The notes under the pieces: model-generated
What the model was told of the DNA's origin: nothing
Seen by the model: only the letters and a program-made list of their open reading frames with translations
Database searches by the model: none
Source of the DNA: a virus
Reading direction: 5' to 3' (one strand)
Virus record (IMG/VR): IMGVR_UViG_3300025073_000085
Location: 1 to 43,552 of that record
Length of the DNA stretch: 43,552 nucleotides
Part shown: in pieces, positions 7,337 to 39,108 of the stretch
Layout of the letters: each line of letters opens with the position of its first letter
How positions within the stretch are numbered: the first letter of the stretch is position 1
Program-made: the position numbers and the translations under genes

Positions 7337-8164
7337 TCATCTTGCCAACCATGTGAGATTGGCAGTTGTCGCAGCCGCAGCCTGGGCTATGAATTCCAGC
7401 GCCCCCACCCATTCGGGTATCGCAATGGGCACGGAGTACTCGGTGGCAGCCTTCTCGGTGAGGGAGTCGGAGTCGGTGGTGATGGTTCCCGCTCCCACCG
7501 CGGCCATCGGGATTATCTTCTCTATCTCGACCCCATTGGTGAGGGTAGCCGAGACGGTCAAGCGAAACCAGAAGAGTTGGGGATCTCCCGGGGGAGCGTC
7601 ATTCTTCCCCAGGATGGCCGAGAGCTTCGCCGTTGTCCACGTGGTCGGCACGGTGTCGATGGTGACATTCCCATCCTGAGCCAAAGTAGCTCCCGCTCCC
7701 GTATCCGTCCCGTCGGTGATGGCCGTTGCGGTAAAGGCGTTGCCTTGGCTATAAGCGCCTGTCATAGTGGTGGGGTTTACCGCATTGACCAGGGACGCAT
7801 CCATGTCGATATGCCATCCCTTTCCCACCCTTTTCATGCCCATGTAAATAGCATCCGCGGTGGTCATGGCGTTGAGGGCTTTACCCGAATCCCCTGCCAC
7901 ATGACGGTTGATGATGGCCTTGTCTTTGTCCCCCAGGAGGTCAATCCATCTGGCCTTCGGGTTACGTGAGGCGTCGTAGAAGTAGAGCGCGGCTATGCCG
8001 GGAACCATGTGCATTCTGCACGCAGCCGCGGGTTCAACCAGGATTTCAGTGAAGCCGCGACGCACCGCAATGGGCAGACGGGTCCCGTTGTTGGCGGGAA
8101 CTTCGGTGTTACCTAGCTGCTCGGAATACGCCCTGGTCAGTGGCCTGGATACCGTTTGTACCAC
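7337..8164 (-). CDS. Virion structural protein (beta-rich, 275 aa)
   Basis: A 275-aa protein from a GTG at 8164 that overlaps the TAG of the upstream gene. The N-terminal half has mixed character (RLPIAVRRGFTEILVEPAA; ALYFYDASRNPKARWIDLLG). The C-terminal half has beta strands and Thr/Ala-rich loops (NVTIDTVPTTWTTAKLSA), ending in an Ala/Thr-rich segment. Together with the coiled-coil protein (8164-8532) and the helical protein (8529-8981) it forms a tight overlapping trio. A shell or appendage protein is plausible, but I see no family signature. Confidence 0.5.
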   Translation of the reverse strand: MVQTVSRPLTRAYSEQLGNTEVPANNGTRLPIAVRRGFTEILVEPAAACRMHMVPGIAALYFYDASRNPKARWIDLLGDKDKAIINRHVAGDSGKALNAMTTADAIYMGMKRVGKGWHIDMDASLVNAVNPTTMTGAYSQGNAFTATAITDGTDTGAGATLAQDGNVTIDTVPTTWTTAKLSAILGKNDAPPGDPQLFWFRLTVSATLTNGVEIEKIIPMAAVGAGTITTDSDSLTEKAATEYSVPIAIPEWVGALEFIAQAAAATTANLTWLAR

Positions 8165-29786: not shown

Positions 29787-30623
29787 CTACTGCCCCACTT
29801 TACCATCGCTCATCCTCCTGAGAAACTCAGCTAGCTGTCTACCAATGAACTCGGTATAGGCTGGTGGGATGGCCTGGGTAAGCTCAGTCCGAGCCATCCA
29901 GTCTATACCCATCGTTTCGGCTACCCTGTGCCAGCCCTTGGCATGTCCCACCCCAACATCCCGACCATTTTGCCATACCCTGAGACCCGACCCCTTACCC
30001 TTATTTCCTGCTCCTACAATAGATTTACCGTCCTTGTAAAAAGGGTCGACGTTGCCCGATTGAGTTGGGAAGATGATGGGGGATCTCCCTCTGTGTGCTT
30101 GATGTTCGGGTGCGAGCCATAGGAAGTTGCTATCGAACAGGCGATGTCGCGGGAAGGGCAGACCGAGCATGAAGCCACACAAAAACCCCGCTTCAAGACC
30201 ATGAACCTCCAGGCCCCGCTTCATCAACCCTTTCGCTCTCTGCCGCGCTCCCATGACATTCTCAATGACGTATGGCTTCCCAATGCTCTCCAGGACTTCC
30301 TGGATTGGCCGAATAAGCAAGGGATATTCCTTGCCTTTCAGCCAGGGCAGGTTGTTCATTATGGAGTATCCCTGACACGGCGGGCTTGCATGAATGGCGT
30401 CAAGGTCCTCCAGATGCCATGTGTGGCCGTCCTGGTCGTCCCAGCAGTCGCCATGCGCCAAGGCATAGAGCACGTCCAGGGCGTCGGCCTGAATGAAATG
30501 CTCGCCAACGTAGTGCTTCTGAGGCTTGATGTCCACGCCGACTACCTCGAAGCCGGCCATCTGGTAGCCTTTTGTTGCACCACCAGCACCGCAGAAGGTG
30601 TCGAGAAGCCGGTACTTCACCAT
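29787..30623 (-). CDS. DNA (cytosine-5) methyltransferase
   Basis: A 278-aa C5 methyltransferase, short for the family. Motif I DTFCGAGGATKGY (residues 8-20) binds S-adenosylmethionine. Motif IV SPPCQGYS (80-87) holds catalytic Cys83. Motif VI ENV is at 121-123, and a motif X-like FIGRQLAEFL lies near the end. No restriction enzyme gene lies next to it, so it is an orphan. It probably modifies phage DNA against host restriction or marks the nearby origin. Target sequence not predictable. Confidence 0.88.
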   Translation of the reverse strand: MVKYRLLDTFCGAGGATKGYQMAGFEVVGVDIKPQKHYVGEHFIQADALDVLYALAHGDCWDDQDGHTWHLEDLDAIHASPPCQGYSIMNNLPWLKGKEYPLLIRPIQEVLESIGKPYVIENVMGARQRAKGLMKRGLEVHGLEAGFLCGFMLGLPFPRHRLFDSNFLWLAPEHQAHRGRSPIIFPTQSGNVDPFYKDGKSIVGAGNKGKGSGLRVWQNGRDVGVGHAKGWHRVAETMGIDWMARTELTQAIPPAYTEFIGRQLAEFLRRMSDGKVGQ

Positions 30624-30748: not shown

Positions 30749-31834
30749 TCAAACCTCTGCGTGGGTTCCTGGTAGGCCATGCCGCCTAATCCACTCCCTG
30801 GCGTCAACGCCAGGCGCTTTATTGCCATTTTGCCTTTCATCTGTGCTGACATCGGGTATCTCGTCGTCCCACTTTTGACCTCTCAGCCAGGTTGCAGGGT
30901 AGGGGATGTACTGCAATTCTTTCTTTGCGATGTGGTCACGCCAGATTGAGGCTGTTTGTGCTTTGACGGCCTGGAGGATGGTGTCAACCAGGTCAGGTGA
31001 GGGGCGCAGTTTAGTCCACGCTTTCTCGGCTTCCACGCGGGAGACGTGGAGTGGGTAGAGTTGGTAGAAGATTTGGAAATGATTATCTACAAAAGGTGGG
31101 GGCAACCCATCAAAGGCGATTTGTCGATGGTCAATCCAGCGTTGCCGAGGTTTACTCCATAGCTTTTTGTGGATATAGAGACGCGCTTCTTCAATGGTAT
31201 CAAAGATAGCTTTGCCTTTGATATTATTACATGCATTGCAGGACAGAATTAAATTCTCTCCTTCTAGTCCACCTTCACTCTGTGGGAGAAAGTGATCCCA
31301 GGTAAAGCCTCCGCGTGGATCATCCTTCGTCCCACATCCACAATAGCTACATACTCTCATATCTGAACTCGGTAAAGGTGGCACAATCCCTTTAGGGGGA
31401 TTATAAGGGTTCTTATTTTCCTTATTGATGGTTCTCTGTGATGGTTCTTGATGGTTCCCGGATACACCAACTTCCGCCTTTCGTGTCGTCAACTTCCGCC
31501 TTTCTACACCAACTTCCGCCTTTTCCGCTTTTATTTCACCAACTTCCGCCTTTCTTATGGTAGCTTCCTCTCGTATCTTTTCTACATTCAGGTAGTAGTG
31601 AATCCCGTGACCTCTACCCGCAGCCTCGGTTATAGACAACCAGTCCTCAGCTTCCAGGATGCCGGTCTGTGTTCGGACTGACCGTGTGGTAGCAGAAACC
31701 TTAATTGCTAAGGTGTCCTGGGAAGGCCAAGCATGTCCAGCGTCGTTAGCATTATCGGCCAGGGAGAGAAGGAGCAGCTTGAGTCCTGGTGACAAATTCA
31801 GGTTGAATATATCTGCCATCAACTGAATACTCAT
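30749..31834 (-). CDS. Replication initiator with winged helix, embedded HNH domain and C-terminal loader-like domain
   Basis: A 361-aa protein (AGGAG 7 bases before ATG). Residues 1-85 form a winged-helix domain of HTH_36 type (SLADNANDAGHAWPSQDTLA). Residues 94-123 carry KAEVG repeats encoded by iterons. Residues 160-208 are an HNH nuclease: C162-x2-C165, DH at 180-181, N195, C199-x2-C202 and NIKG. Residues 252-325 match the end of phage replication proteins (FYQLYPLHVSRVEAEKAW; PATWLRGQKWDD). It would bind the origin inside its own gene and recruit the host helicase. The HNH insertion is unusual. Confidence 0.75.
   Translation of the reverse strand: MSIQLMADIFNLNLSPGLKLLLLSLADNANDAGHAWPSQDTLAIKVSATTRSVRTQTGILEAEDWLSITEAAGRGHGIHYYLNVEKIREEATIRKAEVGEIKAEKAEVGVERRKLTTRKAEVGVSGNHQEPSQRTINKENKNPYNPPKGIVPPLPSSDMRVCSYCGCGTKDDPRGGFTWDHFLPQSEGGLEGENLILSCNACNNIKGKAIFDTIEEARLYIHKKLWSKPRQRWIDHRQIAFDGLPPPFVDNHFQIFYQLYPLHVSRVEAEKAWTKLRPSPDLVDTILQAVKAQTASIWRDHIAKKELQYIPYPATWLRGQKWDDEIPDVSTDERQNGNKAPGVDAREWIRRHGLPGTHAEV
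31401..31553. other. Candidate replication origin inside the initiator gene
   Basis: Four exact 14-base iterons CAACTTCCGCCTTT start at 31468, 31490, 31510 and 31540. Three TGATGGTTC nonamers lie at 31426-31434, 31439-31447 and 31449-31457. An AT-rich stretch is at 31401-31427. Iteron steps of 22, 20 and 30 bases place one copy in another reading frame (encoding ERRKL instead of KAEVG), so the repeat is kept as DNA, not as protein. This matches lambda-type origins, where iterons lie within the initiator gene. Confidence 0.75.
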
Positions 31835-34242: not shown

Positions 34243-34560
34243 ATGACCAGGGACACAAATGAGTTTGCATCATTCGACAGGCCGTATATCTCAGTGGGTT
34301 TCCTCACGGGCAATTTGCCAGAGGACTGGGATGCAGGGGCATATCAAGACTCCCTGCAAAAATTCCTCCAGGCTCGCTATCCCAACGCCCTCATAGCGGT
34401 CCTCTCCCAGCCAGGCGAGGGTTCGCTGCCCTATCCGCTAGAGACCTACACTGATACCGGGGGCGCTCCCTACAGTAGGGAGACAGACGCGATGAGACGT
34501 GAGGTCGAAATGGCCCTCGCAGACCACGACAATCAGTACAACCCAGCAACAGGGGCGTGA
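34243..34560 (+). CDS. First early gene, hypothetical
   Basis: A 105-aa protein with the best translation start of the window (AGGAGG, 5 bases). The sequence has an alpha/beta look (YISVGFLTGNLPEDWDAGAY; YPNALIAVLSQPGEG) and an acidic C-terminus. As the first gene after the main early promoter it is a candidate host-takeover or regulatory protein. It ends GGGGCG-TGA-G-ATG, the first of a series of near-identical gene junctions. Confidence 0.7.
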   Translation: MTRDTNEFASFDRPYISVGFLTGNLPEDWDAGAYQDSLQKFLQARYPNALIAVLSQPGEGSLPYPLETYTDTGGAPYSRETDAMRREVEMALADHDNQYNPATGA

Positions 34561-37952: not shown

Positions 37953-38113
37953 CCACCACCATCGAAACGCCTGTCCCTGCTTGCCACTTTTGTGGCAGTA
38001 GCAAGGCCGATGAACTGCGTCCAGTGACGGTGGCAGGGCGAGAGGTCTGGTACTGTAGCGACGTAGCCGAGTGTTGGGAGAGACGGAAAGCACAGAAGAA
38101 GGAGAGCACATGA
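37949..38113 (+). CDS. 54-aa zinc-binding protein
   Basis: Read directly: ATG 37949 overlaps the preceding stop and TGA 38111-38113 overlaps the next ATG. Residues 12-15 (CHFC) and Cys at 36 and 42 (WYCSDVAEC) make a ribbon or treble-clef pattern, followed by a basic tail (ERRKAQKKEST). It is too short for usual cut-offs and fills the gap exactly. Confidence 0.7.
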   Translation: MTTTIETPVPACHFCGSSKADELRPVTVAGREVWYCSDVAECWERRKAQKKEST

Positions 38114-39108
38114 GTCCTATACATGGTTTATCGGAAACACGGCGATTGCCCCGCTTGGGCAAGATTCACCTTGGCGAGAAGGTCACCAATGCCAGGGGCG
38201 TGGAGTACCCAAAGGCGACAGAGTATTTTGTTGTGCCAGATGAGGTTGCAAAAATCTATGGCGCACAACCTACCAGCTTGGACATCATGTTCCCGGTGGA
38301 GGACGAGGCAATCTTTGCATCCCAGTTCTACCGTGCCTACAGTCAGACTAGGGGGCTGGTCTGCAAGGGCGACGGTGAACGAGCCGCCCGCCTTATAGAC
38401 GTGGCTACGAAACGGGGGACGGAGGATACAGGTGAGATTACGGGAGACATCGCCACCGCTCAGGCAAAGGCCGTTGAATGGGTAGATGATATACCATGTC
38501 CTGGGCAGGCGTGTCCTTACTACCAGAAAAAGCAATGCCGGGAGTTGATGATGTTGCAATTCATCTTGCCCAGAGTGCCGGGGTTGGGCATCTGGCAGTT
38601 AGACACATCCTCGTATCACGGCATGGTGAACGTCAACTCGACTCTCGCTATGATTCGGCAGATGTTCGGGCGGGTATCGGGTATCCCCCTAGTCCTCAGC
38701 CTGGAACCGATGGAGGTTGCGCCGGAGGGTAAGAAAAAGACGGTGCGTGTCCTGCAACTGCGGTCAAGGGAGACTATGGCCGATATGTTGAAGCTGACGT
38801 TTGCGCCTCTACCCGAGCTCCCCAGTGCTGTAATGCCTGCCGCAGAGGATGAAGTACCCGTTTTGCTTTATCCTACTGAGGAGGAGCGGCAGGCTCAGGT
38901 TGAAGATGACCAGACCACCCCTGAAACCCTACTCGGCTTCAAGGAGTGGGCCAAAGACACCTGGGGCTATGAGACCTGGGAGGACTTGTGCAAAGACATG
39001 GGCGTTGAAAAACCCGCTCAAATTCTCACGATGCACGAGACCTGGCCTAACGCCGTTGACTATCTGGCCTCGAAACACACCGAGGTAGTAGCAGAGGACA
39101 TCCCGTAA
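38110..39108 (+). CDS. Recombination directionality factor / Gp3-like protein
   Basis: A 332-aa protein that matches the Gp3-like family, named after phage recombination directionality factors. It starts with IHGLSETRRLPRLGKIHLG, then YPKATEYFVVPDEVAKIYG, DIMFPVEDEAIFASQFYRAY, a Cys cluster CPGQACPYYQKKQC, and HGMVNVNSTLAMIRQMFGR with IPLVLSLEPMEV. In integrating phages such proteins turn integrase toward excision. Here no integrase is seen, so a different or relic role is possible. The C-terminal 60 residues look separate. Confidence 0.75.
   Translation: MSPIHGLSETRRLPRLGKIHLGEKVTNARGVEYPKATEYFVVPDEVAKIYGAQPTSLDIMFPVEDEAIFASQFYRAYSQTRGLVCKGDGERAARLIDVATKRGTEDTGEITGDIATAQAKAVEWVDDIPCPGQACPYYQKKQCRELMMLQFILPRVPGLGIWQLDTSSYHGMVNVNSTLAMIRQMFGRVSGIPLVLSLEPMEVAPEGKKKTVRVLQLRSRETMADMLKLTFAPLPELPSAVMPAAEDEVPVLLYPTEEERQAQVEDDQTTPETLLGFKEWAKDTWGYETWEDLCKDMGVEKPAQILTMHETWPNAVDYLASKHTEVVAEDIP

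Follow-up and report, generated by a model that had tools for sequence, protein, structure and literature searches.

The replication initiator gene and its product

The window, which is the whole stretch of DNA analysed here, is an IMG/VR virus record of 43552 bases. It carries on the complementary strand a gene whose 361-residue product is identified by profile matches as a phage replication initiator (Table 1), in agreement with the call made in a preliminary description of this DNA. Pfam assigns HTH_36 (1.3e-9) and HNH (1.7e-7) to the protein and no other families. The PHROG matches are to phrog_270 (1.8e-25, residues 249–337), phrog_391 (8e-17) and also phrog_1032, which are 'O-like' and primosomal families. 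The domain order is a winged helix (residues 1–100), a linker whose coding sequence holds the putative origin, an HNH domain (residues 162–208) and a C-terminal domain of the O/primosomal type (residues ~249–337). AlphaFold models the winged helix, and only the winged helix, with high confidence (mean pLDDT of 83–98 per 10-residue block over residues 1–100); the full-length model is poor past about residue 110 and the linker is modelled at low confidence. A Foldseek search with the initiator model returned generic winged-helix matches, mostly MarR-like, with none below E = 0.001.

The HNH domain is absent from the preliminary description and was found by Pfam. Inspection of its sequence locates the expected conserved cysteine, DH and N positions, and a role in self-homing or in nicking is possible. 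A separate cluster of proteins of 164–165 residues (L121, L155, L162 and L163) has the same type of HTH domain together with HNH and lacks both the C-terminal domain and the box described below.

A DNA methyltransferase gene (29787–30623, minus strand; phrog_363, PF00145) lies directly downstream of the initiator gene. The neighbouring genes scanned, a subset of the open reading frames, consisted of this methyltransferase and unknowns, and no helicase or helicase loader gene was recognised among them. The product of 38071–39108 (plus strand) strongly matches a Gp3-like family of recombination directionality factors (PF18897, 3.7e-48), and this points to a temperate lifestyle with a serine integrase. 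The terminase of this phage has distant matches only in the phage collection.

Table 1. Features of the initiator gene, with iterons and boxes numbered along its coding strand.
Feature	Coordinates	Strand	Description	Basis
Replication initiator gene	30749..31834	(-)	361 aa	translation, Pfam, PHROG, AlphaFold
Iteron 1	31540..31553	(-)	AAAGGCGGAAGTTG, codes KAEVG	exact match, frame
Iteron 2	31510..31523	(-)	30 bp after, and in frame with, iteron 1	exact match, frame
Iteron 3	31490..31503	(-)	20 bp on, other frame, codes ERRKL	exact match, frame
Iteron 4	31468..31481	(-)	22 bp on, in frame with iterons 1 and 2	exact match, frame
Box 1	31449..31457	(-)	GAACCATCA, codes NHQ	exact match, family motif
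Box 2	31439..31447	(-)	GAACCATCA, codes EPS, 10 bp on	exact match, family motif
Box 3	31426..31434	(-)	GAACCATCA, codes RTI, 13 bp on	exact match, family motif
AT-rich stretch	31400..31429		77% AT, candidate unwinding element	AT profile
HNH nuclease domain	31211..31351	(-)	residues 162–208, between origin linker and C-terminal domain	Pfam HNH above curated cut-off

Iterons and boxes in the linker-coding sequence

Two arrays of direct repeats occupy the linker-coding part of the gene. The first consists of four exact copies of a 14-mer, CAACTTCCGCCTTT (AAAGGCGGAAGTTG on the coding strand), at 31468, 31490, 31510 and 31540 with steps of 22, 20 and 30 bp, and the spacers between the copies are unlike one another. 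The window has no further copy of CAACTTCCGCCTTT, even when two mismatches are allowed. The second consists of three exact copies of a nonamer, TGATGGTTC (GAACCATCA on the coding strand), at 31426, 31439 and 31449 with steps of 13 and 10 bp, and these three copies occupy all three reading frames. The same nonamer also stands alone at 7480 and 39824, so within the window its cluster alone is notable. The adjoining 30 nt are 77% AT against a window mean of 45%, a value equalled by 0.03% of 30-nt windows. The preliminary description had listed the four 14-mers with their steps, the shift of one copy (iteron 3) out of the frame in which the other three read KAEVG, the three nonamers and the AT-rich stretch, and all of these were recovered in the same places. 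The spread of the nonamers over all three frames is an addition to that description.

Synonymous-codon shuffling, in which the protein and its codon usage are kept, was used to generate 5000 versions of the gene. In none of them did any 14-mer reach four copies, and three copies of GAACCATCA arose once; neither array is a product of chance. Nowhere else in the window does a 10-mer occur four times within 200 bp, and a single stretch near 9.4 kb has one that occurs three times. The cumulative GC skew of the window reaches its minimum at 34,458, about 3 kb from the arrays, and since this point lies near the strand switch of the long open reading frames the skew speaks neither for nor against an origin at 31400–31553.

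The 14-mer array was found in no other viruses than this phage, to which two further, near-identical IMG/VR contigs belong, and no KAEVG-bearing relatives were found beyond these two. In one near-identical contig, L002, a 7-bp deletion near its position 490 (~31580 of the window), just upstream of the iterons, breaks the initiator frame and is either a natural mutation or an assembly error.

The nonamer recurs in phage initiator genes

A scan of IMG/VR for three copies of GAACCATCA separated by short gaps returned 85 stretches. The triple motif lies in 41 distinct long open reading frames, 33 of which match phage replication-initiation families and 32 HTH_36; DnaD_N similarity is found in 10 of the 41. 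In the initiators the copies sit in the linker and read along the coding strand, and many arrays use two or more frames; the remaining long open reading frames consist largely of simple single-frame repeats. The GTDB genomes contain at least 117 stretches with a triple AACCRTCA. Among the matches listed, 33 are in prophage-type initiators, 27 of them with at least two frames in use, and the named hosts include Alpha- and Betaproteobacteria, Stenotrophomonas, Campylobacter, Alistipes, Bifidobacterium, Mycetocola and Rubrobacteraceae. Lewinella, Gomphosphaeria and Candidatus Methanoplasma also have short-spaced AACCRTCA arrays (L298, L308, L312, L353 and L309) that do not lie in recognisable initiators and may be intergenic repeats.

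A second sample was gathered blind to the motif. Initiators of this kind are too diverse for one overall alignment and were collected as proteins matching three peptide patterns of the HTH domain, which gave 170 genes. These fall into 67 clusters at 60% identity over 60% of length, a scheme adopted after single-linkage clustering by the HTH domain alone had over-merged the set into 19 clusters. When all 8-mers of the linkers are enumerated, AACCATCA ranks first with 37 clusters and its variants come next. Of the 67 clusters, 50 have the degenerate form AACCRYCA on the coding strand and 2 have it reversed. Under synonymous-codon shuffling, AACCRYCA appears in 21.9 clusters on average and in at most 29, compared to the 50 observed, and AACCATCA in 11.3 on average and in at most 19, compared to the 37 observed. 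The linkers contain 3.61 AACCRYCA boxes per kb in sense and 0.06 in antisense, whereas 541 control open reading frames of the same contigs contain 0.09 and 0.10, respectively. This 40-fold excess is accompanied by regular placement: neighbouring boxes are 10 bp apart 25 times and 11 bp apart 20 times, at least two reading frames are used by 33 of the 36 clusters with multiple boxes, and none of the 541 control frames has two boxes within 14 nt.

The spelling of the box varies with the HTH subfamily. In another subfamily AACCRYCA is replaced by a 9-nt sister form, AACC(A/T)GTCA, which SfV has as GAACCAGTCA, and one or the other spelling is present in 58 of the 67 clusters. The box class tracks the HTH subfamily, and phages of Pseudomonas aeruginosa differ from one another, with AACCGTCA in phi2 and AACCACCA in JBD68. 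Conservation of the box inside clusters of close relatives is suggestive over the few sites available. The window has the features of the class, namely an HTH_36 N terminus and coding-strand boxes at 10–13 bp in mixed frames. Averaged over the relatives, there is no general AT enrichment beyond ~10 nt past the last box, and the AT-rich stretch of the window may thus be peculiar to its phage. The titles and abstracts of the open-access literature yielded no earlier description of the shared box.

The presence of the nonamer in mixed frames across diverse initiators upholds the proposal of the preliminary description that selection acts on the DNA. That proposal had named the iterons as the conserved element and treated the nonamer as an adjunct. 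The roles are reversed by the family-wide comparison: the 14-mer array was found in this phage only, and the nonamer is the element that is conserved.

Direct repeats precede the boxes

In 51 of 58 clusters, exact direct repeats of at least 11 nt lie within 150 nt on the 5′ side of the boxes; none of the 58 has them on the 3′ side. The sequence of these upstream repeats varies from phage to phage. Their commonest offset is 22 bp, which is used by 27 of 50 clusters, followed by 17 bp. Multiples of 3 are not favoured, as expected for selection on the DNA and not on the peptide. The array of the window obeys the same order, in that its direct repeats precede the boxes and none follow them, and its steps of 22, 20 and 30 bp fit the offset pattern of the family. 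An intragenic array is the usual arrangement for HTH_36 initiators and is unsurprising in what the preliminary description called an 'otherwise unrelated phage'.

Comparison with known intragenic origins

In lambda and Stx phages, the initiator O binds repeats inside its own gene, which holds the origin (PMC7466680). In gene O of these phages and gene 18 of P22, the origin sits centrally, with initiator-binding iterons ~20–24 bp apart and an AT-rich tract on the 3′ side. The window shares the repeats inside the initiator coding sequence, the iteron spacing of about two helical turns and the AT-rich tract, but here the boxes set the tract apart from the iterons. Lambda O and P22 18 have no AACCRYCA box, their iteron sequences are unlike those of the window, and the window initiator, with HTH_36 and HNH, does not belong to the lambda O family by Pfam. 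The 'lambda-type' label of the preliminary description is therefore apt for the intragenic iteron form and the likely way of working and not for family membership, and the locus is likely to be a lambda-like intragenic origin outside the lambda family. Lambda gene O (L233) and P22 gene 18 (L401) have a common word, ACAAAAGACA, just after their iterons, at the place taken by AACCRYCA in HTH_36 phages, and this word is possibly a counterpart of the box.

The Staphylococcus plasmid pSK41 (RepA_N) has four Rep boxes in the centre of rep that are bound by the N-terminal winged helix, and the protein sequence encoded at the Rep boxes is dispensable for replication (PMC5703833). In pPR9, the N-terminal domain and the origin region differ as a unit and resemble a phage replication protein (PMC5703833). 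The repeats of pSK41, like those of the window, are inside the gene of their own initiator, but pSK41 is a plasmid and its Rep belongs to another Pfam family; the window initiator has no Pfam match to the RepA_N domain PF06970. A strand-specific element is also known from the chromosomal oriC of Bacillus subtilis, where the single-stranded DnaD recognition element, TnnT, lies opposite the DnaA-trios and is read by DnaD, which loads the helicase (PMC10201434). The box shares strand specificity with this element, and the DnaD N-terminal family matches some box-bearing initiators, but the sequences differ.

Discussion

Positions 31400–31553 are quite probably the replication origin of this phage, located in the linker-coding part of the initiator gene and composed of phage-specific iterons followed by family-wide boxes, both read by the initiator. 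The box is common, at the DNA level, to the initiator genes of most phages sampled, which makes it a likely part of their origins and one that is apparently unnamed. Against the reading of 31400–31553 as the origin, the GC-skew minimum is 3 kb away, AT enrichment is not general in the relatives, and no helicase or loader was recognised among the neighbours scanned.

The order on the coding strand, AAAGGCGGAAGTTG four times, GAACCATCA three times and then, in this phage, the AT-rich stretch, suggests how such an origin would work. By analogy with the known systems, the winged helix of the initiator most likely assembles on the iterons. The boxes, in a single orientation about one helical turn apart on the C-terminal-coding side, would most probably extend the complex toward the site of strand opening, for which the AT-rich stretch is a candidate. 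The C-terminal domain would most probably load the helicase with a fixed polarity that is set by the boxes, and the linker peptide would be a by-product of the DNA signal.

Reading of the box by the initiator itself is favoured because the box goes with this initiator family, the box class follows the HTH subfamily and the spellings differ within one host, as in phi2 and JBD68; shared descent alone could lie behind these observations. Alternatively, the array may be an origin with boxes that serve as targets for a conserved replication protein of the host. The box is near-constant while the iterons and the C-terminal domains vary between phages, and a cooperatively binding host protein would suit the 10–11 bp spacing. 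A host factor is nevertheless unlikely: the hosts span several phyla, lambda and P22 do without the box in enteric hosts, phages of the one host P. aeruginosa have both AACCGTCA and AACCACCA, and the HTH subfamily predicts the class.

An equally doubtful possibility is that the boxes act as single strands after opening and are read strand-specifically by a DnaD-like or O-like initiator for helicase loading. Their strict confinement to one strand, the DnaD_N similarities and the B. subtilis precedent (PMC10201434) are in keeping with this idea, but the helical-turn spacing favours binding to the duplex. Only 73 of 111 boxes have the TnnT core in their complement, and the AACCGTCA class lacks it. 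The specific DnaD TnnT explanation, which fails for that class and for about one-third of the boxes, was rejected.

A function in the mRNA, through control of initiator translation or antisense control, would explain why the motif is strand-specific and within coding sequence. It is very improbable in view of the helical-turn spacing, the adjacent iterons and the experimentally known intragenic origins of analogous genes.

Selection for KAEVG or EPS linker peptides, or a functionless recent tandem duplication, could be read from the three of four 14-mers that share a frame and identical codons and from the low-confidence linker model, but this is hardly credible. The boxes occupy all three frames in the window and varied frames in the rest of the family, synonymous shuffles never reached the family-wide counts, the repeat offsets do not favour multiples of 3, and the spacers between the copies are unequal. 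Disordered, repeat-prone segments often receive low model confidence.

Initiator-read boxes in an intragenic origin thus remain the preferred reading. With more reserve, we incline to the broader view that AACCRYCA and AACC(A/T)GTCA together are an undescribed origin element of HTH_36 phage initiators from several host phyla, read by the initiator in helix register. An intragenic origin is usual for this initiator family, and the family-wide box is the wider result and the part worth following. The odd EPS, NHQ and RTI peptides of the linker would then be explained as the imprint of a DNA signal. The same box in very different hosts, beside iterons that vary from phage to phage, raises the question of what reads it. 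To our knowledge, experimental mapping has reached few phage origins. If a short strand-specific word marks the intragenic origin in the majority of the sampled initiators of this large family, it would allow origins to be called from sequence and, if the assignment is true, would serve as a signature comparable to the DnaA box that locates many phage and prophage origins by sequence alone.
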